From assembly GCA_948146395.1 (NCBI GenBank), contig OX411552.1, positions 13,128,957 through 13,192,956 on the forward strand: a stretch of 64,000 bases of DNA, written 5' to 3'. This document shows, one piece after another, positions 7,441 to 58,089 of the stretch (position 1 is the stretch's first letter; each line of letters starts with the position of its first letter). The DNA comes from Fragum whitleyi (Eukaryota; Mollusca; Bivalvia; Cardiida; Cardiidae). The position numbers and the translations under genes were made by a program. The notes below the pieces were generated by a model. The model saw only the letters and a program-made list of their open reading frames with translations. It was not told the origin of the DNA and did no database searches.

Positions 7441-7661
7441 GGGATTCAAAATTCTCAACAAAGCACTCGCCCTCTCCAAAGATGCTCTGCACCTGTTGAA
7501 TCTACAGTCATGATTTTAGCTAATTCAATTAATGTCCATATGCTGATCATCCATACCAATTTTCAAGTCTGTAGGACTCCTGGTTCATTAGAAGAAGTTT
7601 AAAGATTTCAAAAATGATCCAAAGTTCTACCCCCTCCCCAAGACACTCAGCACCTTGTGAC
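7441..7661. repeat. Diverged leading units of the 163 bp satellite
   Basis: About one and a half further satellite units, more diverged (CTCCAAAGATGCTCTGCACC, CATATGCTGATCATCC). They precede the well-conserved copy B and have no counterpart in the window before copy A, which is cut by the window edge. Confidence 0.75.
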
Positions 7662-9027
7662 CTTACAGTCATGATTTTAGCTATTTTTATTAATGTCAAT
7701 ATATTGATCACCCATGACAATTTTCAAGTAAGGTTCCTGATCCAGGAGAAGAATAAGGTTAAAGATTTCAAAATTGATCCAAAGTACTACCCACTCCCCC
7801 CTATTGCATCTGGTGGCCCTACATTCATGATTTTAGCAATTTTTTTTAGATCCACATGTTGATCATCCATGCCAATATTGAAGTCTGTATGGCTCCTGGT
7901 TCATTAAAAGATGAAGATTAAAGATTACAAAATTTTCACAAAAGTACTACCCTCTCCCCCCGGGTGCTCTGCACCTGATAGCATTACAGTCATGATTTTA
8001 CCTATTTTCATAAAGGTCTATGAGCTGATCCTCCATGCCAATTTTCAAGTCTGTAGGGCTTGTGGTTCCAAAGAAAAAGAAGAGGGTTAAAGATTACAAA
8101 ATTTTCACAAAAGTACTACCCTCTCCCCCCAAGTGCTCCGCACCTGGTGAATCTACAGTCATGATTTTAGCTATTTATATTAAGGTCCATATGCTGATCA
8201 TCCATGCCAATATTCAAATCTGTCGGGCTCCTGGTTCAGAAGAAGAAGAAGGATAAAGATTACAAAATTTTCACAAAAGTACTACTCCCTCCCCCCTGGT
8301 GCTCCACACCTGGCAGCCCAACAGATATGATTTTAGCTATTTTTATTAAGGTCTATGAGCTGATCATCCATGCCAATTTTCAAGTCTGTAGGGCTCCTGA
8401 GTCCGAAGAAGTAGAAGCTTAAAGATTACAAAATTTACCCAAAGTACTACCCCCTCTCCCCTGGTGCTCCACACCTGGTGGCCCAAAAGATATGAATTTT
8501 GCTATTTTAATTAAGGTCTATGAGCTGATCCTCCATGCCAATATTGAAGTCTGTATGAATGTGAAATGTGAAAATTTTTTGCACTTTTTCTTAATGTACG
8601 TATTTTTCACATGATTTCTATACAACGTTCATGCACGGAGACGTCTTTTATTAGACTCCGCTAAAATGACGTCACAAAGGGTAAAATTATCGAAAGCGGG
8701 GTATAAGTATTTGATATTTACACAGGTTAAGCAAAGAGTTTATCAAATGATGATTTATCCTAATTTTTCAAAAATCCACTGAAAAGCATTAAAGAAACAA
8801 CAGTAACTTGATACTGGCACACGTCATGACGTGACGTCGTTACTCGTAACGTTACTTATGGTCAAGACCATTAAGAAAATTCGCACCATTTTAGTCAAAA
8901 TCCAATCTACGGACCCTTTTCTTCGCTCCATTTTTGAATAACGTATATTTTATTCTGCAAAATGAGAAAAAAATAAAGAAATTTATTGTGAATGATCTCA
9001 TTGCAGAGATCCTTATATGATCAACAG
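7662..9027. repeat. Segmental duplication copy B: satellite plus unique tail
   Basis: Aligns with 1-1361 from end to end, direct orientation, about 7.66 kb apart. Alignment stops sharply at GATCAACAG: copy A continues into the 55 bp repeat, copy B into unrelated sequence (ATTGCAAGTTTTACAACC). Small differences, such as AGAAGAAGG versus AGAAGAAGAAGG, show the copies are separate rather than a simple sequence repeat error. Confidence 0.92.
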
Positions 9028-18444: not shown

Positions 18445-21400
18445 CTGAAATTATATCAAATATAAACAGGATATTGAATAAGTGGTCATGGAATGCCAAA
18501 TTTATTAAACATGTCATCTATAAACAGATAAAAACAAGGCCGTTTTTATCTGTTTTAGATGACGAGTTTAATCAATTCCGTATTTCAGACATGGCCATCC
18601 CCCGCCGTGAAAGCTTGATAGTAAACTGAAGCCTAATAGATAAATGATTCTGCTCCATGAGATCTATCCACCAATAAAGTTTCAAGTTGATAGCTATTAT
18701 ACTTTAGGAGATATGCTCGGGACAAAATCTAAGTCTTAAAAATAACAAAGGGCAATAACTCCAAAATTATGCAAGCAAGAGTTGTAGTTCTTGTGCACTG
18801 CACTTCTCCTCCATGAGATCTATCCACCTATAAAGTTTCAAATTGATAGCTATTATACTTTAGGAGATATGCTCCGGACAAGTTTAGTGACGGAACCTCG
18901 GAATGATGGAATGACGGACGGAGACCATTACTATATCCCCTCGCCGAAAACAGCTGGAGATAATAAGAAAATTATTATTATATAAGCAATAAAGATGCCA
19001 TATAAAAATTATTGTTCATGTTATTAAACTATTGACCTTGACTGGGTCACTTTATACTTATCCTGCTGAATTTAAATGATCCCGTGTGTGACATTTCCAA
19101 CAATTTGACGGGCGCATAAAGTAGAAACATTGAGCAACTAGTCAGACATATAGTAGTGCATTAGAAGATTATCTGACTGTCAAAAGACATTTTGAGACCC
19201 TATCTGTCTACAAAGTGCATATTGAGGACTATGTTCAGCCTGTGCAGACGCACAGGCTGGCCAAAGGCATTGCTTGATGCACTTATGAAATTGTTGAAAA
19301 TGTCACACACAGGCTCAAATATTGTTTCAAAAGAATTAACTATTTTTGAACATTTCAGCCAGCGTGTCAGATTTTTTTCCACATCTTTTGAGAAGATACT
19401 GGCAGTATAGGCAAAGATCACTCAGCACTTATGCACAGACTGATCTGAGTCTAAATTATAAGCAAGAAATTTGTGTACTGCAGGAATATGCTGCAAACAG
19501 CTTACGAAAGGATTTTTTTTTTAATTTTGACCTCAATAATTGACCTTGACCTTATCAGATGACATTTCATTGAAATATGTGGATTGATGAGATGAACCTT
19601 TACACCAAATATGAGCATTGTCAATATCAATTTTCAAAAGTGTTGAAGTTATTGGATAATGTCTAGTTTGCTAATTCAGTTTGCAAGTTAAAAACTTTTA
19701 ACAGCCAAAAAGACAGCCAGGGGGACACAGGTATATAATTACAATATGCCCTGATCTATTTGGGGGGGGGGGGGCGCAAAGTGCATAATACCCAGTAAAA
19801 CTCGATTTGAAATCATTTTCCTACCTCTCATAATACTTCTTATAGATTTTACTGATCCACCACGCATATTTAAGATCTGCATTACCCTTTGTCTTACCTG
19901 AAACATAAATAGAATTCACAATCAAAATAATCAAATTTAAGACATATCAGTTCCATACAAGCATGAACTTGACCCCTTATTCAGTTTATTGGGAAGACCT
20001 ATGAATCCCTAAATAGTAATTTGAAAGTAATGAACTTTAACAGTGTTAGCAAAGGTTTCCTAATGATTTCCATTAGGAACACTTGGTCAACATTGTGAAA
20101 GATCACGAGCTCCTAAATGTTGAGGAACTATTACGTTTCCTCTTTCTTAAAGTGATATTTTTAAAACAAGTGAAGCTTACTAAATGTCCTTCATCACTGG
20201 CCTAACAACAGACATTTTATCCATCTCTTTCTTTTTTCCCTTATTTAAAAGGATTGATGCATTAAAATATCTATCATCAGGGTTATTTGGCGCAAATTCA
20301 ATGTCTCTAAAATACAAATCAATCATGACTGATGAATTACATATAGAAAATTAACCATTGCATCTCATTCCAGTGAAATTAGGTTGATATCCATCAATTA
20401 GATTATGAGAAAATGATTTCAAAGTTTCTACTGTATCACATGTAGAGAAATAAACTCGGCCCATAAAAGACATACTTTTCATCTGATTACAATAGTTTTT
20501 TGTAGACTGATAAAGGGTAACCCAAGAATTGTTTATGTGAAATTTGGTTGATATCCATTTGTTAGATTCTGAGTAAATGATTTTCAAAGTTTCTAATATT
20601 TGAAAAATAGAGAAATGCCCTCCACCAATAAACTACATATTTTTCATCTGATCACAATAATCTTTTGTAGACTGGTTAAGGGTCACCCAAGGATCACTTA
20701 TGTGAAATTTCGTTGATATCCATCAGTTAGATTCTGAGAAAATGATTATATCATGATAACAAGAAAATGTAACAGACGGACAAATAGGAAAAAGTGTATC
20801 ATTATAGCTCTTGTGACTTTCAGTCAGTAGAGCTAAAAACTGTCTTTACTTACACTGTCAGATCCAGATGAACATATTTCTAACATGATATAATCTATCA
20901 GCTGTAGTGTAAACAGACCAGCATCAAGTCTACGGAGATAAAAACTATCTTTACTTACACTACTGGAGCCAGATGAACATATTTCTAACATGATATAATC
21001 TATCAGCTGTAGTGTAAATAGACCAGCATCAAGTCTACGGAGATAAAAACTATCTTCTAAATCATCATCCACATCCTGGCCTAGGTATTTCAATTTCTGG
21101 ACAAGAAAACAAGGTAATATTTGAGTTTTTCATGATTTTAAAATAGATGTAAAACTATGTAAACTTTGAGGGAATTTCTTTGCTATTGATCCCTGAAATT
21201 ATGATTTACAATGCCAAAGAAAAGTAATTCAACTTAGTGCATACTATTCTCTAAATAGCTCATACTTTGCACATTTCAATTCTGAAATTGTGCCCACAGA
21301 AGGAATCTGGACAAAGAAAGAATATACATGTATATTATTGAATTAAACTTTACCTTTACTTCAGAAGATTATAAGTAAGGTTGAAGATGGCAAAATAGTG

Positions 21401-27400: not shown

Positions 27401-30400
27401 CTACATGGTAAAGTTTGATTGATATCCATCTGTTACATTCTGAGAAAATGATTTTCAAAGTTTCCACTATAGAACATAAAGAGAAATGACCTCCGCCCAT
27501 AAAATACATATTTTTCATCCGATCATAATTAATATTGGTAGACTGATAAAGGGTCACTCAAGGATCATTCCAGTGAAATTTGGTTGATATTCATCAATTA
27601 CATTCTGAGGAAATGGTTTTCAAAGTTTCCACTATATAACAAATAAAGAATTGACCTCCGCCCATCAAATACACATTTTTCACCCGATCACAATAATTTT
27701 TGGTAGACTGATAAACGGTCAACCAAGGATCATTCATGTAAAATTTAATTGGTATTCATCACTTAGAATCTGAAAAAACTCACTTTTTACCATATTTGGA
27801 AATTAGCCAGGCCCATTAAATCCATGTTTTTCATTGGATCCAAATTTCTTGAACAACTTTGAAAGAGGGTTACCCAAGGATTATTGCTGTGAAGTTTGGG
27901 TGAAATTCATCCAGTAGTTTCTGAGGAGAAGATTTTTAAAGAAAAAGTTTACAACCGGACACACTGATGCACAGACAGACAGACGGATGCACTACGGACA
28001 CAGCAAGAGGAGCTGAAAATCAAGTGGTATAAAATTAGATTAGACTGCGCATTTTTGTAGGTTGATCTTTTTATATGCCTCCTTCCAAAGTAGGAAAATT
28101 CCAGGTTCAGCGTGACAAGGGTTAAAAGATTAAAATCCACTTACAGCTAACTGTTGAAGAATGACATCAATCCCATCAACATCTCCTAGAATCTGTCTGT
28201 TATCTGAAACAGGTAAATTCTTGCTGGTACCAAAGGATGGCTAAATCCAGGATTTACATTTCATATCAATCCTATACTTCAATGCTTTTTGGTGGATTAT
28301 CGAGAAATAATATTAGAATATCACTTGATAATCTCACCACAAAACAACTGAAAGTACCAAACTATTATAAGCTGATTTTGTTTGTTTCACTCAATTAGAC
28401 GTTGTTAAAGGTTAGCCAAATTAACAAATGACATCCTTGCATTTCTTAGTGAGCAAGTGCAAAATGAAGCGCTTTAAGTGAATTTGTCCAAGTTTTTTCA
28501 CATTTTGTATTATTTTTGACTTAAAGAAAAAGAATAATCATGTTTTTTGTGTAGGACCAATAAATCTATCATTTTGTGAACAACAAAAGCTATGTTTCCA
28601 CTCAATGGCTTCGCCATTGGTTAAAATACAGCTTTTGTTGCCCATGAAAGATTTATCAATTCCATACTGAAATAAACAATTATCCTCTATGCATTTTTTT
28701 TCTAATGAAAACTAATTCTGTGTTTAAAATAAGTAGAGAGATGAACAGAGGACAGAGATCAACAATAGCACCACACAACTTTTCTTGGATACAGGCTAAA
28801 TAATTTGAGTCCAAAAAGAGGTATTGTTTGTACGAAAGGCATCTAGAGATATCACCTTTGATGTTGTAAGTTGTTCTTTTGTCCAGTGAACATGTCATAC
28901 AAGTTTTTATCTAGTGTCTTTAGTAATACCACAGATATTAGAAGATGTCAAAAGTCTTGCACAGTAAAGTTGATCATGATGCCAAGGCTATAGCAATACT
29001 TTGGTGTTTCAATAAAACAGTGGAACTAAAAAGAAATAACTAAATGCAGTTTCCATGCTACATCAAGATTTCCTTAGTTTTAAGATGAAAAAGAACTCAC
29101 CATCACTGTTCTGTACAAGTATGGCTAATATTTCTGTTGCATAAAGCTTGTTAGCATCAAATGGTAATTTTGCCTGGAATTATATACATTTAAATGATCA
29201 TTTAAACTTATAAGACCAATAACTTCAACAATAACTCAGCTTTTAATTCCTTTGTTGACAATGAATATGGTGTCAAACATTCAGATCGTAAGCATTGAGG
29301 TTAACTTATTTTCATTACCTGGCCAACAAACCAGACTTCTATATTGACCCTTAAGGTAGTGGACCCTTAAAAGATCCACAACTTTTCGGCGGTCATGAAC
29401 TTTAACAGTGTTAACCAAGGTTTCCTAATGATTTTCATTAGGAAACCTTGGTTAACATTGTGAAAGATCACAAGTTCTGAATTGTTGAGGAACTATTGAG
29501 GTTCCACCATCTTAATATTCTGACAAACAGGTACAGATAGGAGCAGTTAGATAAGGTTTTACTTTTTTTGCTGCTCTTTGAGCTTCAGTGTGTTTCTACA
29601 TATTTCCATTCTGGACACTCTTCATGAATTTTAGATCCATTTCTCGTCAGACTTTGATCTGTCTGATAGCTTATAGCATTTACAATACTTTCTGAACTAT
29701 CAATATATGATCATGTTCATTTTAATGCCATATACATTTGTCTTTTGAGATTATGCTAACAATATTTCTTCTAATAATAGTGCCCTCCCTAATAGTAGCA
29801 CCCCTACATTTTTACTAAGAAAACCCACTTCAAATGCCTAAAATTTAGGAACTTTTTTTAGGACTTCTTTTTTAACTTGAGGTGAATTTCCTCCAAACAA
29901 TAATTTATATGATTGTTTTGAGGAAATTCACCTCAATTTAAAGGGAAAAGGGCCTAAAAGACATCAAATTTAATGATTTTTAAATCAGAAAATGCATACT
30001 AAATTAAAGCTCCCTTACCATGTTATGTATAGATTCAGGGAGCATTTATTAGGAAAAATACAGTACCTTAATTCTCTTTAGTAACCAGTTCATAAGACCT
30101 TGTTGTGCTGCGTCTGTACACATGTCTGGCTGGAATTCTGTCATATTCTCTATAACAGCTGGAAGATAAAAACATAGTCAAAACACTTCACAGTTACTAT
30201 ACAGAGCTGCTCAAGACAGTGGGAGTTGTTTTGCCTAAACAAGAGCATTGCCTGCGGGTACCTTAACTCGGCTGTTGATTGCTGAAAGGGGCATAATTTT
30301 CACAAAAAGCATTTAGAGTTATTCCTATTGGTAGTATTTGTTGCTCTTTTGATGGTGAATATGTATGCAAAGTGAATGCATTCAGTAGAACCAGAGATAT

Positions 30401-33400
30401 CACAAAATGTCAACATATTTGCATGACCATGACAACAACAGCAATGCCAAGGCTAAAACAATACCTCAATATTTCTCTGAAAACAGCTGAGCTAAAAATG
30501 ACCTTGAACTTGGTACCAACAGAAAGCAATCATCATATAAAATATGAAGGCTCTATCACTTACCATTCAAAAGTTACGACCATTGTCAATGTTTTGTTTT
30601 TTTTGACAAATGAAGTAACAGACTAACAGAGAGGTCAAAAACATAATGTTCCAATCTATCGATGCTGGGCAGTACTATCAGCTGTATTTCTCACCTAATG
30701 TATTATGTACCCCATCTCCCTCCTCCTTCACATTTTCATCTAATCTCTCTAAATTCTGTACTAGAAGGGCTACTACCTGACCATCCAACTGAAATAAAAC
30801 ATGACATTGAATTTTCTACTTATTCAGTGAATTAGCAATTATGTATTACAAGAATCAGGATGTCAAAATACTTTTATCAAAATTTACAGAAAAAAGAATA
30901 TCATTATATAGACAAGTTTCAGACCAATCACTCTACTTATGGCCAAGTAAAACGATGTCATATTGATTCTTTTAGCAGTGCTTCGATATCATTAAGACCT
31001 TGCTGGAAGTTCTGATTAAAAGGATTTTGTTCATTTTTGATATAAGGCATTCTGTACCACATGTATAGTGTAAAAATAAGAAATCTATAAGCAAATGCTC
31101 ACTGCCTATACCTCCTTTTTCTGAGATAAAAGTAAAATTTCTGACATGCATAATTGCTGAGAAAAGAGCAACAGAATTTTTGGTTACAGACGGATGGACA
31201 GACAGAGGTAAACCAGTATACCATCCCCCCCATCTTCTTTGAAGCAGGGGTACAATAATTTTCTTTAATGCATTTCAGAGGTGCATCAAGAATTAACAGT
31301 AGATTATCATTTGTTAATCGCACTGCAAAGTTGAATTATCAAAAACATATACCCTGATTTTGATCAATTCACTCTTCTTAATGTTATCGAAGCGGAACCC
31401 TAAAACAAATTTTAATGATGTCAGGATGATGTTGCCTAGAAAATCACATGCAAAATGACGCGCATAGAGTAGCTTTGTCCCATAATTTTCACAGTTTGGC
31501 CAATTTTTGCATGAAAGAAAAGGAATAACCATTTGTCTTTCGTGTAAGATCGATGAAATATTCATTTTGTGAACAACAAAAGCTAAATATTGACTAGTGA
31601 AAATATAGCTTTTGTTGTTCACTTAATGCAAGATAAATTGATATTACACTGAAACAAACAATTATCCTCAATATATTACCAAAGCCCCTATCAAAGCTGT
31701 TGCCCCTTCTTCACTCTCATTCAGTGTGTCTACATCTGTCAGTTCCTGCATCAGATCTACTGTGGCTATAGAAATGTCTGTGTTCTCATGTGTGAGAAGT
31801 TGTAATAATGACTGTACAGTGTTTAGATCCACAAGGATATGATACAGTTCTGGTACTGTAGCTATAACATGCATCTCTTGGACAACATCATTCAGTTCTA
31901 TCTCTGACTCCATAAACCTGAAAGTATATGTATGTATTACTTGAAAGTATATGTATGTATTACTGAATTGTGATAAAGACTGTACAGTGTTTAGATCTAC
32001 TAGGATATGATACAGTTCTGGTACAGTAGCTTTAACATGCATCTCTTGGACAACATCATTTAGTTCTATCTCTGACTCCATAAACCTGAAAGTATATGTA
32101 TGTATTACTTGAAAGTATATGTATGTATTACTGAGTTGTGATAAAGACTGTACAGTGTTTAGATCTACTAGGATATGATACAGTTCTGGTACAGTAGCTA
32201 TAATATGCATCTCTTGGACAACATCATTTAGTTCTATCTCTGACTCCATAAATCTATAAGTACAGAATCATTTTAAAAATGTTAAAGCATTTAAAAATCC
32301 TTCATTAACAACTGTAGCAAAAATCTAATTAGGACAAAACTTTCTGCGAAAACAGCTTACAATATAACTGTATATATACATAATATGTACCTAGTGTTTT
32401 GTATGAAAAAAAATATCTAACAAGGTTGGGAGAATTGATCATTGTCCAGGCTCTGCCAAGACAATTATCAATTCTCACAACCGAGTTAGATATTTTTTCA
32501 AACAATACACTTAGTATGTATTATATTTATCTTATTACCTCTATTTGTATTGTTTTCGTCGATGTTTCTAACTGAAATGCAAGTTTCTAAAAATAACCGC
32601 ATTGTATCATTGTTCTGAAAATAACAATGTGATATCATAAAAAATATCATACAGAATGTTATCACACAGATATTTGTATAGTTATAAGATAAAAACTATA
32701 CCAACCAATACCAACACAAGCAAAACTTAATCAATTTAAATTTCAACATTTTGTTAACTAAGTAGCACTGCTGGATGTCCAACTTGTGCACTGCACCTTG
32801 TAATCATGAGAGGAACATAACTGCCAAGTCTCAAGTCAGTCAAACATATTTATCAACCCTTTCCTGTTTTACAAAATTTTGACCTGTCCTAATTCAAAGG
32901 TTTTGCAGACGAAAATTTAAAGTGCATTTAATTTGAAAAATAACCATTCAGTTAGGGTAGAAAAAAGTGTGGAAAAAGAAGAAATTGCTTGTCAGAAGCA
33001 ATTTCTTCTTTTTTTCACAATGTTTTCTCAATTATAAAATGACAGACTCGTAAAAAGCAGGGATTAAACAGTAAAGGGTTAAGGTAATAAGAGTTTCACT
33101 CCAGACAAAGAAGTGGACATTTAGACACCATGGGTGATCACGTATGTCCCTCTTTCGTCAAGTGTTTAATTGTAGTAATGATATACCTAGAGTATTAATC
33201 ATTGGTCAATGCTTTACTCTTGGTCATAGTAATCCCTGGTTATTCCTGCTTTGGCAGGAGATATGGCTACGGTCAGCCTGAACATATGTGCAGCCAGATC
33301 TTAGTCTATACCACCTGATTTCCCATTTTGAACCAGAAAAAATCAAGAGGACCAATCCCATGATGGTCCTAGATCGCTTACCTGAGTCTCTTTCAACCCT

Positions 33401-36400
33401 GGGACATCACATCAATTAAATAAGCAGATGTTAACAAGAATGCTATCAACAAAGATTATGATCAAACTGTTTCCTGCTTTTTTTTGTAAAGAAGATATGC
33501 CTTGACACAGACCTTATTTGAACAAAGGCATATGTAATGAAACTAAAGTGAAAAAAAGAAATTCAAAATCTTCATCAAGGTCTGTGAAATGGCAGGGATC
33601 TTTCCAATTTTCTATAGGTTTTTTCATCCTTGGGACCTGACAAACATTCTGACCAAATTTCAAATAGTTTGGGCCACACTTAATGCCTCTCTAGAGTAAA
33701 GAAAAACTAGAAAGCCATGAATGGCTTGAGTAGCTCCACAGGCTTGAAATTCATGTAAAAGCAAATAAATGTTTTGACTTGATTTTTAGATATTTGGGGT
33801 TCTACTGATGTTGAAAATGATTTTCAAAGTTTGAACTATATAACAGATAGAGAAATGACCTCCGCTCTGAAAAGATATTTTTTCATCAAATCAAAATGAT
33901 TTTTGGCTGCATAATAATGGGTCACCCAAAGATCATACCAAAATTTTTTGATTGATATCCATCAGTTACATTCTGAGAAAATGATTTTCATAGTTTCCAA
34001 TATTTAACTATTTATTCACCAATAATTTTTGGTACACTGATAAAGGGTCACTCGAGGATCATTCCAGTGAAATTTGGTTGATATCCAAAAATTAGATTCT
34101 GAGAAAATGATTTTCAAATTTTCCATTATATAACATATAGAGAAATGACCTCCGCCCATAAAATGCATATTTTCCATCCCATCACAATGATTTTTTGTAG
34201 ACTGATAAAGGGTCACTCAAGGATCATTCCAGTGAAATTTAGTTGATATCCATTGGTTACATTCTGAGAAAATAATTTTCAAAGTTTCCACTATATTATA
34301 ACATTTAGTGAAATGACCTCCGCCCATAAAATGCATATTTTCCATCCGATCACAATGATTTTTTATTAACTGATAAAGGGTCACTCAGGGATCATTCAAA
34401 TGAAATTTGGTTGATATCCATCAGTTACATTCTGAGAAAATGATTTTCAAAGTTTCCACTATATAACATATAGAGAAATGACCTTCGCTCATAAAATGCA
34501 TATTTTCCATCCGATCACAATGATTTTTTCTTAACTGATAAAGGGTCACCCAAGGATCATTCATGTAAAATTTAATTGGTATCCATTGATTAGAATCTGA
34601 GAAAACTCACTTTTTACCATATTTGGAAATTAGCCACGCCCCTTAAATCCATGTTTTTCATTGGATCCAAATTTCTTGAACAACTTTGAAAGAGGGTCAC
34701 CCAAGGATCATTCCTGTGAAGTTTGGTTGAAATCCATCAAGTTGTTTCTGAGGAGAAGATTTTTAAAGAAAAGTTTACGACCGGACGGACGCACGCACGG
34801 ACGGACGGACGGACTCACGACGGACACAACACCATGACAATAGCCCCAGTGGCTTTCAGCCAGTGGAGCTAAAAAAACATTAAAGCCCTTTTCCATTGAT
34901 ATGGCATGCATCCTTCCCATTTTCAAAAAGGATTATCCTTGAGTCCTTACAAACATCCTGACCAAGTTTCAAGAAGATTGGGCCATATTTGTGACTTCTA
35001 GAGTGTTGACAAGAAAATCATTATTAAGGCCCCTTTCCCTGTAATATGGCATGGATCCTTCCAATTTTCCTTCATCTTTGTGACAGGGACATTCCGACCA
35101 AGTTTCATGAATTTAGGGCCATATTTGTGGCGTCTAGGGTATAAACAAGAAAATTGTCATTAAGGCCCCTTTTTCTGTGATATTGTATGGATCCTTCCAA
35201 TTTTCAAAAGGATTCATCTTTGTTACCTGGCAAACATTCTGACAAAATTTCATGAAGTTTGGGCTATATTTGTGGCCTCTAGAGTGTAAACAAGAAAATT
35301 GTCATTAAGGCCCCTTTTCCTGTGATATGGCATGGATCCTTCTCATTTCAATAGGGTTCATCCTTGTAACCTGACCAACATTCTGACCAAGTTTCATGAA
35401 AATTGGATCATATTTGTGGCCTCTAGAGTCTAAACACTCAAGTTGTTGATGCATGATTAACGACACACAACAGACATTCAATGATCACAAAAGCTCACCT
35501 TGAGCACAATGTGCTAAAGTACGTTAAAAAAAATCAAAATAGTACTTTCAAAATCAAATGCTGACTAGCAATTTGGAAATACAGAGATTTCCGCACTCTG
35601 ATTTTAAAGCAATTTTGGCAAAAATTTTATTCACTGATTTCAGCATAATAGTCCGGCAGATATTGGGGTGAATCTGGATTTGGAGTACATAGAAAATGTT
35701 TTTACATATTCAGAAAGCTGAGGCTTTCTACTTTAAGAATCCGTCGGATGACACCTTGTCATCCTTGAGCAATTTGAGAAATTAAAGATGGCGTCCAAGA
35801 TGGCCGCCAGAAATAGAAAAATGTCAAATTCCTCGTATTTATATATTTTTCGCAGGAAATGAAGCATAAAACATATGCATTCTGATAATGATGAAAGTCT
35901 GGTTGTTTTAAGAGGTAATCATGCATGTAATACCAAGATGGGAGCCAAGATGGCAGCCAGTTTGAGAAAAAAACACTTTTTTTCGATGGTTTTCTTAATA
36001 TTGGATCTTATTTCAATATTAATCTTTAAAATAAAATTATTTTAATACTTTACCATTTTTTCTCTATATTTTTTGTATTTTTGCTTAATTTTCTTTATCA
36101 ATAGAACAAATTTCATCAAGAGAATGACTTGATAAACATGCCGGCGAGAATACTTTTGACGGATTCCAGCAGACATGAGAATGAAGCTACTTGTAGATTT
36201 GGAGTACATTGAAAATAAATTCTTAAAACAGAGGCTCTCTACTTTAATTAAGAACATATCAAAAGCACCTTGTGACCCTTGCGCATTTGACAATTTAGAA
36301 ATGGCATCCAAGATGGCCGCCAGAGATAAAAATGCCAGATTCCTGGTATGTGGATACTTTTTGCAGTAAAATGATTCATAAGACATCGGCATTTTAATGA

Positions 36401-39400
36401 TAGATGGAGGACGCTTGGCTTTGGGTGAACATCATGCAAATAAAGCCATGATAGCAGCTAAGCTGGCAGCCAAAATGAGTAAAAGTCACATATTTTTTCC
36501 AAAGATTTCTTCAATTTAAATCTAATTTCAGTATCAATCATGGGAACAACAATTATTTTTGAATACTGTTTCAATGCTCTCTCTCTCTTTTTCTCTCTCT
36601 CTCTCTCTCTGTAGCCCCCTCTCTCCCTACCTCTCTCTCACCATTTCTCTTCCGCTTTTTTTTATTTCTTAAAACTTTTCAACATAATTTTTCTTATTCA
36701 ACAATAATCGATATTAGCTTTTTGTGTGATTATTGTAGCATATGGCTGATCCTTGACTGGAGCAAAATATTGTACAAGACAATCAAGCTTTATTGCAAGT
36801 ACATTGTAATAAAACACACGGCGACTGACTTTCACAAGAGCATTTTATCTGTTTCAATACATTCTCAGGAGCAAGGGGCATGTTTTTTGGAAGCATCACA
36901 GGGACAAGCTTCTTCTGCTCATCATTTTTTTTTGATCCAGCCATGCCCATGGTTTTCTTTATGCTTTTTCAGAGTTACATGATCGTCAGATTCTGAAAGG
37001 CAGTCAATGTCCTGTTCAAGTCTACTACAAATGTAGAGACTCAAAGACCACACTTTTAAAGTCTCCGGTTTGAGAGTGACATCAATAATACCATGTTTTC
37101 CGTGCCCGTATCTCATAAATGTAGTTTCAATATACATATTGCTCCAAACACCATTCCAGATTCCAGGGACATGGCGCATAACATGCTTTTCCTTCACGAA
37201 TTTATCCTGACAAAGCCCTGACATTGATTCCATTGATCTCAGATAATATAAGCCATACCTAGCATAGTTGAAATGACCTACAGCCAAAAAATATGGTTTC
37301 ATTGCTTTCATTGCCACCAAATGCAAACCCCAGTCACCCTCTCTTTCGGCCCGAATATACATCATAATGATGAAAACGGCTCTTATGGTACAGTCAATCC
37401 AAAGTTTAGATGTTTTACTTTTGCTACTGATGTCAAACAATAATTGATCTAGTTCAGTAAAGTCTCTTATATCATTAGCTGAAAATAATAGTCGAAACAA
37501 TTCGTCTGCCACTAATCTCAACGCTCTAACATTCTGGGGAAATTTCTTGCCTGACATCGTCTTTTGAACTCCAGCGAACGTAGATTCCAAAAGTTCGTGA
37601 AGGCCACTACCGGCCATCAATGTACCTATAGAACCAACATAACTCATTAAGGTGTGCATACCACCTAACCGAAGTATTACATCACTAAACTGTTCTGGGT
37701 ATGACCATAGTATATTCACTGCTACTTTGTAAAGCTGCAAGTCTCCTGTGTATATTACAAATTCTTGGCCACAATTTGTTGTAATTTTATGAGCTTGTCT
37801 TAGAGATGTAATGATAGTATCAGGGTCAGAGGGAGTCATGTCAATCAACGGTAAGTACATGGCCTTTGTTTGTGACTATGATCCATGACCTTGTTCTCTA
37901 CAAATCTTGGTATTAAATCCATTAAACTCTGGACAATCACCACTTGTTAACATATTGTTTATGAAACGAGTGGCCGTTTCTCCTGCTCTATTCCGAGAAA
38001 CTGACATTGCGGAAAGAATTTTCATGGGCAAAACCTGTATTGCTATACATTTATCTGGCATTTGGGGTTTCTTAGGACCATAGTAACGATCAATACACAC
38101 ATCATATTCAATGGCTTTAGTCATTTCAATTTTATCAATGCGCTTAATAGTATTATCAATACTGGGGTCAGGGAGCTTATTAGGGTCTAAGGGTTGTGTT
38201 ACCAAGATGGCTAAGGAATGAGTAGATAGCTTCCCATTCTGGGATTAAATGTACGCATCAAAATTGTCAACGACAACTTCAATTAAACCTGGTTTTGTAT
38301 CTGAAATGCCTTGTAACGCCGGTACTGAGGTTGCTGCAACTGCTGCTGACTTCTTGAATCTTAAGACCTCATCGTAAGTACAGGTTACCCCAAATGCATT
38401 TAACTGTCTGACTAAACTTTTAGAGTTCCTCATAAGAACCCAAAGAGCTAGTTGCAAAGCAAACCAAAATATTTGTTACTATGCTGATGGACTGTAATCT
38501 AGTTTTTTGTACAACACCCGCATAAGCGTTGAACTTAATACATTTTCGACAGTTTCTGTATCAATTCTTGTTTGTAATGCGCTTTGTCAACTTCAACGCT
38601 TTTGACCTCCTTCATGATTTGATTGGACACTGTATTTACAGCTGAATCTAGTAACAACTCTGAATCATGAGTATCATTTACCAATTTCAACATCACATGT
38701 GCTTTATGTCGAAAAACAATGATACTAGCCACTCCAGGAGCTGATAAAACTAGTAATTGTCACCAAAATTGTCGATTAACGATTGAACCAATATTCTTCG
38801 AGTGAGGATACTGACCCCTTCAGCTACGTATATCGGAAATAATTCTAAATTTTACTCTCATTTTCTGACAGTAGCTCAACTAGGTGATCAAAAGTAGCAT
38901 CTGATTTAGGTTTTTCATAAGTATGTGATGTACTTGCAGCAGCTGCATGGATATTCTTTGGAGACATAAAATTTAGTTAACAAGTTGCATGGTACCTGCC
39001 ATCAGCTGCAAACATGTCACTTACTGCTCCTAGTAACCGAAGTAGGACTTCTGTAGACCATTTATCAGCTCAAGCGTCACAAGTATTCAAGATCTCTTGT
39101 TTAACATCAACCTGTCCACTCAAACTTTCTCCAATAGTTCAGCATAAATGGGCTCTACGCCACCACCCAGGATTCTTAGGATCTTTTTCTAGATTGCATG
39201 TTTCACCACAAAACAAACAGTGTTTTTTAAAATCAAAATCCTGCGCAAAGGAGCGTCTAGATTTTTTCTGTAATAGAATTGAAGTATCAATTTAAGATTG
39301 TTGCTTTCTTTTCAAAAAGCGGGAAATATGTTGTTTGGACGAATATGTTGACAGACATGCCCTATGTGTGTAGACAAAATAATTACTTTTGGAGATTTTC

Positions 39401-42400
39401 CTCTAATTCTTGATATAATTCTTGATATGAATTGTCGCCATATTGTTTGCTATAGTCTTTAATTGAAGCGATTCTCTGTGGACCAGACTTTATCAAGTCA
39501 CAATAGTCAGAACACGAACATTTACCAATCCTAGAAAAATAGCACAACTCCATATCTATCAGTTATGTAAAATTACACAATCTCAAGCAAATACTGGTGA
39601 ACTGAAATGTTACTGGCGGAAAAATTCGCTAGCATATTTTCTGAACTTGGCTACAGAAAAATACTTTTGATTCCAATTATACTAAAACTAGTGAAATGGA
39701 CTTTCGCGATATATTATTTGGACTATGGACGTTGACCTTGACTGACATTGTGACATTAGCTTATAGGAACGACCATGGCATTGTCTCATAACAGATACCA
39801 TTCAACCGAATCAAAGAAAAAACACTTAAATAATGTGGGAGCTTAAGAAGAACGAAATGAAGAGGGATAAAAAGACGGTTTGACAGATGGACACATAAAT
39901 GGGCACACATGCTTGAAAATATATCGACAAAAGACATACGGGCAAATTAAGACCTGTTTTATCCAATTTATCGATTTAGGAGAAAACAAAGGATAACAAT
40001 TTAAGATGTTATGAAATATAGGACATTTTAACATTTTGGCTGCCATTTTGGCTGCCATTTTGGCTGTCATTTGGCTAACATTTTGATACTGTGAACAAAA
40101 TATCAAATATAATTTTCAGGGATAGAATGTATTTTGAAAAGCTTCTGGTAAAGCCTCGTGTTGCCTTAAATATTTTCAAATAAAGAAATGGCATTTTTAA
40201 GATACCCGGCTGCCATCTTGGATGCCACTTTGAAGTTCTCAAAATGCATAAGGGTGACAAGATGTAATTCGCGATTTCTAAAAGAAATAAGCCCCAGCTT
40301 AAAGATCATATAAAACTTTTTCTATCTCCATCAAATCCAGCTTCACCCTTAATTCTGACGGAATAGGAAGTAGAAACCAGGAGTATACTAGCCATGTTAC
40401 TTAATCAATTAATTTCTCATCATGAAATTGGTTCTATTTATAAAGAAATTAAAAAAAATCAGAAAAAACATAGGAAAAGCATTTAAACAGTTTTTACCTA
40501 GGTTTGATATTAAGCAAGATCCAAAATATAAAGAAAACTTTCAAAAAGGTGATTTTTTTGCCCAATCTGGTTGTCATCTTGGCTGCCATCTTGCCTTTTC
40601 TTGAAGGATGACCACTCAGTTCAACGTGACTTTCATCTATTATGTGAATGCATATGTTTTATGATTTATTTTACTGCAAAAAATATGTAAATACGAGGAA
40701 TTTGACATTTTCTTATTTCTGGCGGCCATCTTGGACGCCATCTTGAATTTCTCGAATTGCTCAAGGATGACAAGGTGTCATCCGATGGATTCTTAAAGTA
40801 GAAAGCCTCAGCTTTAAGAATATGTAAAAACATTTTCTATGTACCTCAAATCCAGGTCCAGCTTAAAATCCCACAATATCTGCCGGACTATAACAATGCT
40901 TAAATTTGTCTTCTTTAATTTTCATCTTATATTAGGCTACAGTTACTTTACTTACTTTTCTGGCATGTCAGGGAATTTGATTCTCATTTCCTGATTTTTA
41001 TAGACACCCTTTTCAAATTTGAGTAACAACTTCTTCATGTTTGTTTCATCTAAAGCTTCCACCTGTTAATAAAATAGATTCTTTAGTAATATTTAAAATA
41101 TGTCATCTTTAAAGTTGTTGACAGAAATATTTATTTTGGTATATCAAATGCCAATTTATGCGTATTAATTGACCACTTACAGGATCACCAAAACACTGTT
41201 GTTAAAGAGAATGTTTTGCCACAAATAAGAAACATCTTTTTTATTGAATGTTTATGTTATTGCAAATTTCTCAATAGTGCTAAGTTGTTAAAACTCAAAA
41301 GGATTTTCTCATTGAGACGATTCTAATGATTTAAAACAACACAGGATTCATTTATAATATTTTAGTCAAATAAAAACTACTTAAAACAGTCACTAAATAA
41401 ACTAGAAAGCCATGAATGGCTTGAGTCGCTCCACAGGCTTGAAATTCTTGTAAAGCAATAAAAGTTTTGACTAGACTTTTAGATATTTTGGATTCTACTG
41501 ATGTTGAAAATGATTTTCAAAGTTTCAATTATATAACATATAGAGAAATGACATCCGCCCTTAAAATGCATATTTTCATCTGATCACAATAATTTTTTGT
41601 AGACTGATTAAGGGTCACTCAAGGATCATTCCAGTAAAATTTGGTTGATATCCATTGGTTAGATTATGAGAAAATGATATCCAAAGTTTCCACTATGTAA
41701 CATATAGAGAAATGACCTCCGCCCATAAAATACATACTTTTCATCCGATCACTATAATTTTTGGTAGACTGATAGAGGGTCACTCAAGGACCATTCCAGT
41801 GAAATTTGGTTGATATCCATTTGTAAGATTCTGAGAAAATGATTTCCAAAGTTTCCACTATATAACATATAGAGAAATGACCTCCGCCTATAAAATACAT
41901 AACTTTCATCCGATCACAATAATTTTTGTTAGACTGATAAAGGGTCACTCAAGGACCATTCCAGAAATTTGGTTGATATCCATCAGTTACATTCTGAGAA
42001 AATGATTTTCAAAGTTTCGACTATATTACATATAGAGAAATGACCTCCGCCCATAAAATGCATATTTTCCATCCGATCTCAATAATCTTTTGTAGACTGA
42101 TAAAGGGTCACACAAGGATCATTCATGTAAAATTTCATTGGTATCCATCAATTAGAATCTGAGAAAACTCACTTTTTACCATATTTGGAAATTAGCCACG
42201 CCCATTTAATCCATGTTTTTCATTGGATCAAAATTTCTTGAACAACTTTGAAAGAGGGTCACCCAAGGATCATTCCTGTGAAGTTTGGTTGAAATTCATC
42301 CAGTAGTTTCTGAGGAGAAGATTTTTAAAGAAAAAGTTTACGACCGGAAGCACGGACGCACTGACGCACAGACGCACGGACCGACGCACGACGGACACAA

Positions 42401-44935: not shown

Positions 44936-46596
44936 AACTAGAGGCGCTTGAGCGCCTGATTCGCTCCACAGGCCTGAATATCCAAATAATGACTATTAGA
45001 GGATGATAAAGCTGTTTAAATGAGAATTGAAGTGAATGAATGAGTGAATGTTTATTTCAAGTAAATAAGGGTCATATGCTGAAATATTTCTGCATAAAAA
45101 ACTCATGATCAGTGAATAACAAAATTGACCTCTACCTGTTACAAATATTTTTCATTTAATCACAATAATTTTGTGCAGTCTGATAATGGGTCACCCAAGG
45201 ATCATTCTAGTGATATTTTGTTAAAATCCAAATATAAGAATTTCAAAACTAACAGAATGTTACTGCACAATATACTGGTGTTGGTCTGCAAAATTTTGAT
45301 TGTAGATCTTCCACTTTTAATTAAACACTACAAAAGATGTTACTTCACAATTCCTTGTCATCAAAACAAAATTCTAACTAATGATAGTTTGAAGTAAAAT
45401 ATTCAATCCAATATATTTATTTTATTCTGCCCAATGCCTTAGAGTGCAGTAAACTCAACTCTTTCAACCCCACTCTGAATGTCAGAACATCATTTTACAC
45501 TCTGCTCAGATTCACCCTTCGTTCAACTAAACTCACCAATTCTGAGTGGGTATTCTCAGGCTACTTATTTCAACTAATGTTTCTATACATTTGAATTTCA
45601 ACAAAGGTTTTGTTCCTTCTAATCTATAATCATTACACCTATTAAATTCAACAAGTCTAGAAAAATTCATCATAGAGAAGATACCAAAAGGGTGATCAAA
45701 TATTCACTTTATATGTTATAATACCCTCTACCAATAAAAAAAATATGCTGTTCATCTAATCAAATATTTTTTTGCCGACTGATACAACTTCACAGAAATA
45801 AAATTTCCATGATATCTAATCCATCTGTTTAACCTTTCAGGATACATGTAGTTTGTTTTACCCTATATATGAAGAAATGACCTCTGCCCATAAAAGACAT
45901 ATTTTTGGTCTGATCACAATATTTTTAATAGACTTATAAAGGATCACTAAAGAATCATTCCAGTAAAATTTGGTTGATATCTATCAATTAGGTTCTGAGA
46001 AAATGATTTTCAAAGTTTACACTATATAACATATAGGGAAATGACCTCCGCACATAAAATACACATTTTTCATCCGATCACAATAATTTTTGCTATACTG
46101 ATAAAGGGTCACTCAAGTATCATTCAAGTAAAATTTGGTTGATATCTATCAATTAGGTTCTGAGAAAATGATTTTCAAAGTTTTAACTATATAACATATT
46201 GAGAAATGACCTCCGCCCATAAAATACATATTTATCATCTGATCACCATGATTTTTTGAAGGCTGATAGAAGGCCCCTCAAGGATAATTCATGTGAAGTT
46301 TGGTAAATATCCATCAATTAGTTTCTGAGAAAAGCCACCTATTACCATATATGGAAATTAGCCACGCCCACTACAGCCATGATTTTCAACCGATTAAAAA
46401 TCTTTGAAGGAATCTGATAGAGGGTCACCCAAGGAACATTCCTGTGAAATTTGATTGGAATCCATCCAGTACTTTATGAGGAGAAGATTTTTAAAGTAAA
46501 AGTTTACAGACGGACAGACGCACGCACGCACGTATGGACGACGGACACCTCGCCATGACAATAGCCCGCTGGCCTTTCCGCCAGTGGAGCTAAAAA
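44936..46596 (+). mobile_element. Pearl-like element P7, subfamily b
   Basis: Left end AACTAGAGGCGCTTGAGCGC then CTGATTCGCTCCACAGGCC. A ~900 bp unique 5' block is followed by tandem core units, closing block, GACGCACGCACGCACG tract and right end TGGCCTTTCCGCCAGTGGAG then CTAAAAA. Nearly the same sequence as P9 at 56232-58089. Confidence 0.9.
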
Positions 46597-50345: not shown

Positions 50346-51892
50346 AACTAGAAAGCCATGAATGGCTTGAGTCGCTCCACAGGCTTGAAATTTTTGTAAA
50401 AGCAAATAATTGTTTTGACTAGATTTTGAGCTATTTGGGGTTCTACTGATGTTGAAAATGATTCCATCAGTTACATTCTGAGAAAATGATTTTCATAGTT
50501 TCCACTATTTAACATATTGAGGAATGACCTCCTCCTATAAAATTCATATTTTTCATCCAATCAAAATACACTGATAAAGGGTCACTCAAGGATCATTCCA
50601 GTGAAATTTGGTTGATATCAAAAAATTAGATTCTGAGAAAATAATTTGCAAATTTTCCACTATATAACATATAGAGAAATGACCTCCACCCATAAAAAGC
50701 ATTTTTTCATCTGATCACAATGATTTCTTGTTAACTGATAAAGGGTCACTCAAGGATCATTCCAGTGAAATTTGGTTGATATCCATCAGTAACATTCTTA
50801 GAAAATGATTTGCAAAGTTTCCACTATATAACATATAGAGAATTGACCTCCACCCATACAATTCTTAATTTCCATCCGATCAAATGATTTTTGTAGACTG
50901 ATAAAGGGTCACTCAAGGATCATTCCTGTGAAATTTGGTTGATATCCATCAGTTACATTCTGAGAAAATGATTTTCAAAGTTTCCACTATATACCATATA
51001 GAGAAATGACCTCCACCCATAAAAAGCATATTTTCCATCCGATCACAATGATTTCTTGTAGACTGATAAAGGGTCACTCAAGGATCATCCCAGTGAAATT
51101 TGGTTGATATCCATCAGTAACATTCTGAGAAAATGATTTTCAAAGTTTCCACTAAATAACATATAGAGAAATGACCTCCGCCCATAAAATGCTTAATTTC
51201 CATCCGATCACAATGATTTTTTGTAGACTGATAAAGGGTCACTCAAGGATCATTCCTGTGAAATTTGATAGATATCCATCAGTTACATTCTGAGAAAATG
51301 ATTTTCAAAGTTTCCACTATATAACATATAGAGAAATGACCTCCGCCCATAAAAAGCATACTTTCCATCCGATCACAATGATTTCTTGTAGACTGATAAA
51401 GGGTCACTCAAGGATCATCCCAGTGAAATTTTGGTTGATATCCATCAGTAACATTCTGAGAAAATGATTTTCAAAGTTTCCACTATATAACATATAGAGA
51501 ATTGACCTCCGCCCATAAAATGCATATTTTCCATCCGATCACAATGCTTTCTTGTAGACTGATAAAGGGTCATCCAAGGATCATTCATGTAAAATTTTGT
51601 TGGTATCCATTGATTAGAATCTGAGAAAACTCACTTTTTACCATATTTGGAAATTAGCCACGCCCATTAAATCCATGTTTTTCATTGGATCAAAATTTCT
51701 TGAACAACTTTGAAAGAGGGTCACCCAAGGATCATTCCTGTGAAGTTTGGTTGAAATCCATCCAGTACTTTCTGAGGAGAAGATTTTTAAAGAAAAGTTT
51801 ACGACCGGACGCACGCACGGACGGACGGACGCACGACGGACACAACGCCATGACAATAGCCCCAGTGGCTTTCAGCCAGTGGAGCTAAAAAA
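50346..51892 (+). mobile_element. Pearl-like element P8
   Basis: Left end AACTAGAAAGCCATGAATGG, about seven core units of ~163 bp (the longest array here), closing block TAGCCACGCCCATTAAATCC, ACGCACGGACGGACGCACGA tract, right end TGGCTTTCAGCCAGTGGAGC then TAAAAAA. Confidence 0.92.
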
Positions 51893-56231: not shown

Positions 56232-58089
56232 AACTAGAGGCGCTTGAGCGCCTGATTCGCTCCACAGGCCTGAATATCCAAATAATGACTATTAGAGGAT
56301 GATAAAGCTGTTTAAATGAGAATTGAAGTGAATGAATGAGTGAATGTTTATTTCAAGTAAATAAGGGTCATATGCTGAAATATTTCTGCATAAAAAACTC
56401 ATGATCAGTGAATAACAAAATTGACCTCTACCTGTTACACAAATATTTTTCATTTTATCACAATAATTTTGTGCAGTCTGATAATGGGTCACCCATGGAT
56501 CATTCTAGTGATATTTTGTTAAAATCCAAATATAAGAATTTCAAAACTAACAGAATGTTACTGCACAATATACTGGTGTTGGTCTGCAAAATTTTGATTG
56601 TAGATCTTTCCACTTTTAATTAAACACTACTAAAAGATGTTACTTCACAATTCTTTGTCATCAAAACAAAATTCTAACTAATGATAGTAAGAAGTAAAAT
56701 ATTCAATCCAATATATTTATTTTATTCTGCCCAATGCCTTAGAGTGCAGTAAACTCAACTCTTTCTACCCCACTCTGAATGTCAGGAGGTCAAAACATCA
56801 TTTTACACTCTGTGCAGATTCACCCTTCGTTCAACTAAACTCACCAATTCTGAGTGGGTATTCTCAGGCTACTTATTTCAACTAATGTTTCTATACATTT
56901 GAATTTCAACAAAGGTTTTATTCCTTCTAATCTATAATCATTACACCTATTAAATTCAACAAGTCTAGAAAAATTCATCATTGAGAAGATACCAAAAGGG
57001 TGATCAAATATTCACTTTATATGTTATAATACCCTCTACCAATAAAAAAAAATATGCTGTTCATCTAGTCAAATATTTTTTTGCAATATGATACAACTTC
57101 ACAGAAATAAAATTTCCATGATATCTAATCCATCTGTTTAACCTTTCAGGATAGTTTGTTTTACCCTATATATGAAGAAATTACCTCTGTCCATAAAAGA
57201 CATATTTTTGGTCTGATCACAATATTTTTTAATAGACTGATAAAGGATCACTAAAGAATCATTCTAGTAAAATTTGTTTGATATCTATCAATAAGATTCT
57301 GAGAAAATGATTTTCAAAGTTTACACTATATAACATATAGGGAAATGACCTCTGCACATAAAATATATATTTTTTATCCGATCACAATAATTTTTGCTAT
57401 ACTGATAAAGGGTCACTCAAGTATCATTCAAGTAAAATTTGGTTGATATCTATCAATTAGGTTCTGAGAAAATGATTTTCAAAGTTTTCACTATATAACA
57501 TATAGAGAAATGACCTCCGACAATAAAATACACATTTTTCATCCGATCACAATAATTTTTGCTATACTGATAAAGGGTCACTCAAGTATCATTCATGTAA
57601 AATTTGGTTGATATCTATCAATTAGGTTCTGAGTTAATGATTTTCAAAGTTTTCACTATATAACATATAGAGAAATGACCTCCGCCCATAAAATACACAT
57701 TTTTCATCTGATCACAATGATTTTTTGTAGGCTGATAGAGGGCCACTCAAGTATCATTCATGTGAAATTTGGTAAATATCCATCAATTAGTTTCTGAGAA
57801 AAGCCACCTATTACCATATATGGAAATTAACCACGCCCACTACAGCCGTGATTTTCAACCGATTAAAAATCTTTGAAGGAATCTGATAGAGGGTCACCCA
57901 AGGAACATTCCTGTGAAATTTGATTGGAATCCATCCAGTACTTTATGAGGAGAAGATTTTTAAAGTAAAAGTTTACGGACGGACGGACGGACGCACGGAC
58001 GCACGCACGGACGCACGCACGAACGCACGTACGACGGACACCTCGCTATGACAATAGCCCGCTGGCCTTTCGGCCAGTGGAGCTAAAAA
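56232..58089 (+). mobile_element. Pearl-like element P9, subfamily b
   Basis: Left end AACTAGAGGCGCTTGAGCGC, unique 5' block as in P7, core units, closing block, a long ACGGACGGACGGACGCACGG tract at 57976-58035, and right end TGGCCTTTCGGCCAGTGGAG then CTAAAAA. About 200 bp longer than P7, mostly one extra core unit. Confidence 0.92.

Follow-up and report, generated by a model that had tools for sequence, protein, structure and literature searches.

An intron of CTNNBL1 in the bivalve Fragum whitleyi contains the mobile element described here. It lies in a stretch of 64,000 nucleotides (the window; GCA_948146395.1, contig OX411552.1, forward-strand positions 13,128,957 to 13,192,956) and is best explained as a non-autonomous copy, with an internal deletion, from a family of cut-and-paste DNA transposons, most likely AcademX of the Academ superfamily. 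The host gene is recognized from matches of window positions 40958-41065 and 31671-31967 to PDB entries named 'beta-catenin-like protein 1'. The first of these exons is separated by 64 bases from the right target-site duplication (TSD) of the element, and CTNNBL1 and the transposase gene share the minus strand. A CTNNBL1 exon and its upstream edge at 31668-32267 form a tandem repeat (168-bp unit, 2.7 copies, 96% alike), in which one open frame holds three partial exon copies.

An earlier note on this DNA, made from the letters alone, described a transposon with compound inverted ends around a single broken minus-strand gene. That description is borne out, with the boundary one base further in on each side, which is the sole symmetric choice giving a TSD of at least 3 bp (TAA). 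The outer inverted ends are 95% identical over 21 nt (35648-35668/40871-40891) and 91% identical over 201 nt (35659-35859/40670-40870), and the 14-base tips, TAGTCCGGCAGATA, are the same in all 21 copies compared, the window copy counted. As the note had proposed, each end consists of two diverged units, making four related units of ~0.5 kb in all. The left outer and left inner units agree at 71% over 409 columns (part 36196-36592 of the inner unit), the right outer and right inner units at 77% over 135 columns, and the two outer units at 80% over 493 columns. The repeated motif seen in these ends is confined to them, in that all 12 matches of CCAAGATGGCNGCC in the window (up to two mismatches allowed) fall inside the ends; from shuffles, 0.46 matches would be expected.

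The gene between the ends is disrupted by stops and frameshifts. Residues 1-867 and 1388-1460 of the family protein P0001 align to window positions 39553-36955 and 36938-36720, respectively, and residues 868-1387 are deleted. The earlier note had noticed neither this large internal deletion nor the identity of the missing part, which in full-length relatives is a nuclease.

Table 1. Features of the transposon in the window
Feature	Position	Strand	Remarks
Left TSD	35646..35648		TAA
Whole element	35649..40890	minus (coding sense)	5,242 bp; non-autonomous copy with an internal deletion; tips TAGTCCGGCAGATA
Left outer terminal unit	35649..36130	+	motif copies at 35795, 35933, 35945; 80% vs right outer unit
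Left inner terminal unit	36160..36592	+	motif copies at 36308, 36458; start approximate
C-terminal gene remnant with CXC cysteine motif	36720..36938	-	tblastn match to P0001 1388-1460, 64%
Deletion junction	36943..36944		positions 1248-2799 of the intact copy L011 (1,552 bp, nuclease region) gone
DDE transposase core	36955..38586	-	P0001 319-867, 61%; in-frame stops; D, D, E codons retained
N-terminal part with Cys/His motifs	38562..39553	-	P0001 1-326; four frame-shifted pieces
Right inner terminal unit	40014..40365	-	motif copies at 40038, 40050, 40208
Right outer terminal unit	40414..40890	-	motif copies at 40569, 40581, 40721, 40733
Right TSD	40891..40893		TAA

Elsewhere in the window are arrays with a ~165-bp unit (1-889, 7483-8555, 20373-20747, 27408-27778, 33895-34605, 41506-42167, 45873-46333, 50459-51629 and 57176-57802) and, on the minus strand at 1399-1800 and 2352-2933, open frames that by eye resemble pieces of retroelement protease and gag.

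Copies in the same genome

In the genome that holds the window (1.22 Gb, 38 contigs), a 453-bp stretch of the end, used as query, had at least 67 matches (40 of 819 candidates scored), a figure that counts inner units and yields no copy number. Homologues were examined for inverted repeats, and both ends, with their inner units, are present at 20/20 fetched loci. The copy L011 is an intact element of 6,833 bp, with the same ends, an open frame of 1,476 amino acids and a 3-bp TSD, and thus upholds the earlier suggestion that this protein family belongs to mobile elements with terminal inverted repeats (TIRs).

A 3-bp TSD flanks 18 of 21 copies, the window copy counted. Its absence from L015-L017 at first spoke against the reading given here. 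On one side these three have a common flank, identical over 556 bases or more, which in L015 and L016 leads to a second right-type end; both are parts of larger TSD-flanked units of 5,284 bp (TAT; read except for a 399-bp stretch) and 5,321 bp (ATG), respectively, and the far end of L017 is unread. With L015, L016 and a further copy with the same tips (L030, TSD ATA), a 3-bp TSD is found in 21 of 22 copies of the window family. L015 and L016, together with L039 and L040, are chimeric units of ~5.3 kb in which each tip is a right-type end and a left-type end lies internally.

Broken copies lack one or the other catalytic part of the gene. L014 shares the deletion of the window copy and differs from it at 6 of 5,242 positions, with no gaps; its 60-bp flanks are unlike those of the window copy, and it has a separate TSD. 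The main coding piece has an equal stop tally in the two (2 TAG, 2 TAA), suggesting that at least one of them moved when its gene was already broken, with protein supplied from elsewhere. The window copy is without the nuclease, yet copies like it moved recently. Ten further copies (L018-L027) are without P0001 residues ~323-1027, the DDE core; all ten have a 3-bp TSD, and nine are 97.1-99.3% identical to L019. Little sequence is shared at the deletion junctions compared. On contig C6, two matching sets of transposase matches with the same stop tallies (52285576-52290006 and 52301406-52305836) lie ~15.8 kb apart, which suggests that a segment with one element in it was duplicated in tandem.

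The ends also carry an ordered array of subterminal motifs. In the ten copies scanned, motif pairs lie ~135/147 and 287/299 bp inside the left tip, with single members absent in some copies, such as the window copy and L015; counted from the right tip, the distances are ~145/157 and 297/309 bp. Two related families, represented by L031 and L032 (TSDs TAA and TAT), retain the CCAAGATGGC motif near their tips. The ends of L031 are simple and ~0.17 kb long, and in L032 the unit is repeated on just one side; having compound ends at both tips is therefore a trait of the window family. In the stretches fetched for two decayed relatives, there was no clear end pair (none in L033, one plausible end in L034).

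A second clade, typified by P0127 and ~30% identical to the first, occupies 22 places in the genome by our grouping. The five copies fetched (L029, L035-L038; 6.7-7.7 kb) all have TAGTCCAGTCAA at both tips. A 3-bp TSD is present in only two of the five; of the three without it, L037 and L038 are also without a long TIR beyond the tip. The 16-base tip TAGTCCAGTCAANATA occurs 439 times genome-wide, compared with 2 occurrences of a reversed control, and set against the 22 coding places this suggests many short non-autonomous copies. The CCAAGATGGC motif is found in none of the five. Kept in L031 and L032 but not in the second clade, it would track the clade of the transposase, as might be expected of a binding site.

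The protein family and its domains

A read-through query identified at least 216 family proteins at E ≤ 1e-3 among 7,993 candidates scored (120 listed), with a full length of ~1,460 amino acids. The earlier note had placed relatives in bivalves and cnidarians; the matches listed include Nematostella and Holothuria, and second-clade relatives occur in Mytilus, Porites, Dysidea, Littorina, Argopecten and Lytechinus. Judged from these matches, relatives are spread widely across animals. For 14 of the 16 listed proteins of at least 1,400 amino acids, the longest source contig measures 4.8-6.5 kb, as would result if assemblies broke at the edges of repeated elements, although short metagenome contigs in general would give the same picture. 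Scans of IMG/VR and GTDB contigs found no relative, nor did two sequence searches of the PDB, one of which returned nothing and the other a single match at E 0.98.

The layout of intact members, which we hold with good confidence jointly with the AcademX assignment, is a Cys/His-rich N-terminus, a DDE core with an all-helical insertion, a nuclease of Exo1/FEN1/XPG type and a C-terminal CXC domain. A DDE-like core had been anticipated, and it is predicted to be RNase-H-like, with D, D and E in order (D443, D618 and E823 in L011 numbering; D 48/48, D 48/48 and E 46/48 in the family alignment). The GGMH block has an H in 48/48, but the G three residues earlier is just as constant. A model of the core (m43422d77b572; 36955-38475, two stops read as Q) has RNase-H topology at a pLDDT confidence score of 87. 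Foldseek alone gave no match to it at E ≤ 0.001; with VIA-align, the hAT transposase Hermes was the best structural match.

The nuclease of AcademX is of XPG type. In the present family, all seven acidic residues of the nuclease region are kept in 28/28 members of A1, with residue-by-residue equivalence to FEN1 assigned by motif order, and structure comparison matches the region to Exo1/FEN1/XPG. No Pfam XPG family was matched by 7 proteins, by an overlapping set of 28 or by two genomic open reading frames. A search shifted in length to detect longer fusions, a helicase form for instance, gave 8 proteins; nuclease motifs are evident in the distant P0127 and P0128, and there was no helicase match in the four of the eight that were scanned.

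Pfam scans of family proteins named nothing except DUF6589 (PF20231), which overlaps the C-terminal portion of the DDE core. P0019 scored 28.4 against a cut-off of 27, the only one of six proteins in that scan to exceed it, and P0127 fell slightly under (26.4 bits, profile 142-408). The remaining proteins scanned were below the cut-off or without a match. A match at E ≤ 0.01 was found in 10/28 members of A1 (best E 1.3e-4) and none in the second-clade genomic frame of L029.

Proposed mechanism

The mechanism that we propose builds on the conserved ends, the 3-bp TSDs, the intact gene between ends, the conserved catalytic residues, the predicted folds and the spread of broken copies. The transposase would bind the paired, 12-bp-spaced CCAAGATGGC motifs near the tips, a predicted binding site; its DDE core would cut at TAGTCC and join the ends to the target with a 3-bp stagger; and, while the element is being excised or joined, the nuclease might process a 5' end, a flap or a hairpin. 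Incomplete repair after excision may give rise to the internal deletions.

In Tn7, TnsA acts beside TnsB. By analogy, and only tentatively, the DDE core may make one strand cut or hairpin per tip and the fused FEN/Exo1-type nuclease make or resolve the other strand, in which case copies lacking one half could move with both halves provided in trans by an intact relative, and DUF6589 could be the DDE core of the group. The natural derivatives separate the two catalytic halves, being without the nuclease (window copy, L014) or the DDE core (L018-L027). L011 is an intact, testable element, and the fixed subterminal motif array makes the binding-site prediction concrete. More broadly, the family would give a mechanism-level identity to many 'uncharacterised proteins' of animals, and probably to the domain DUF6589 of Pfam; in the family protein, a cut-and-paste transposase is fused with a nuclease of DNA-repair type.

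Classification and comparison with known systems

The earlier interpretation thus stands as regards a mobile TIR family with a DDE transposase. Its further suggestion of an undescribed DNA-transposon superfamily is unsupported. According to PMC10045372, AcademX elements have a TSD of 3 or 4 bp and AcademH elements one of 9 or 10 bp, the difference being tied to an encoded nuclease or helicase, respectively. The present family, with its 3-bp TSD and a DDE protein that includes a nuclease, fits the former. Academ has expanded in bivalves, and a curated mollusc library holds 100 Academ consensus elements with a mean of 5,565 bp, according to PMC10294476. The assignment to AcademX is a good fit to printed descriptions and no proof.

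Were the family a separate superfamily, its likeness to Academ would be confined to the nuclease and the short TSD. Two points weigh against AcademX and for this alternative: Pfam offers no name but DUF6589, which the literature searched does not mention, alone or with 'transposon', and the comparison with Academ is by description. We still regard it as unlikely, in view of the agreement in nuclease, TSD length and element size. Far less probable is a KDZ (Kyakuja/Dileera/Zisupton), hAT, MULE or Kolobok element, although the structural match to Hermes and the cysteine clusters of KDZ proteins point that way. The TSDs of hAT and MULE elements are longer than 3 bp, no hAT, KDZ or MULE Pfam family was matched, and between the second D and the E the family alignment is without the C/DxxH signature of hAT/Dada/Kolobok/MuDR/P. 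Fungal KDZ insertions are reported to have TSDs of 4-8 bp (PMC12810828), and 3 bp is found here; TSD length, motif and absent profile matches are together the grounds for rejecting KDZ, hAT and MULE. That a host gene family or fragment is trapped between unrelated repeats, as the filing of database relatives as ordinary uncharacterised proteins might imply, is barely credible and, as regards this family in the genome examined, is contradicted by ends, TSDs and gene that recur at many sites, the intact copy between the ends, a second clade with its own TAGTCC ends and the insertion within a CTNNBL1 intron.

Several known systems can be compared with this family. Like Hermes (hAT) and the DDE recombinases RAG1/Transib, the protein has an RNase-H core in which a large all-helical insertion comes before the last catalytic residue, but identity is 7-10%, the TSD is 3 bp and the corresponding place holds no CxxH motif. 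Its nuclease has the catalytic acidic residues and fold of FEN1/Exo1/XPG but only 10-17% identity to them, and is fused to a DDE transposase. AcademH, of the same superfamily according to the literature and with known fungal members, has a helicase and a 9-10 bp TSD, neither of which is seen in this family. The compound double-unit ends (absent in L031, on one side in L032) set the window family apart from AcademX as described, and the protein is compared by description only; shared with AcademX are a DDE-type transposase with an encoded nuclease, a TSD inside the printed 3-4 bp and a size near that of printed Academ elements.
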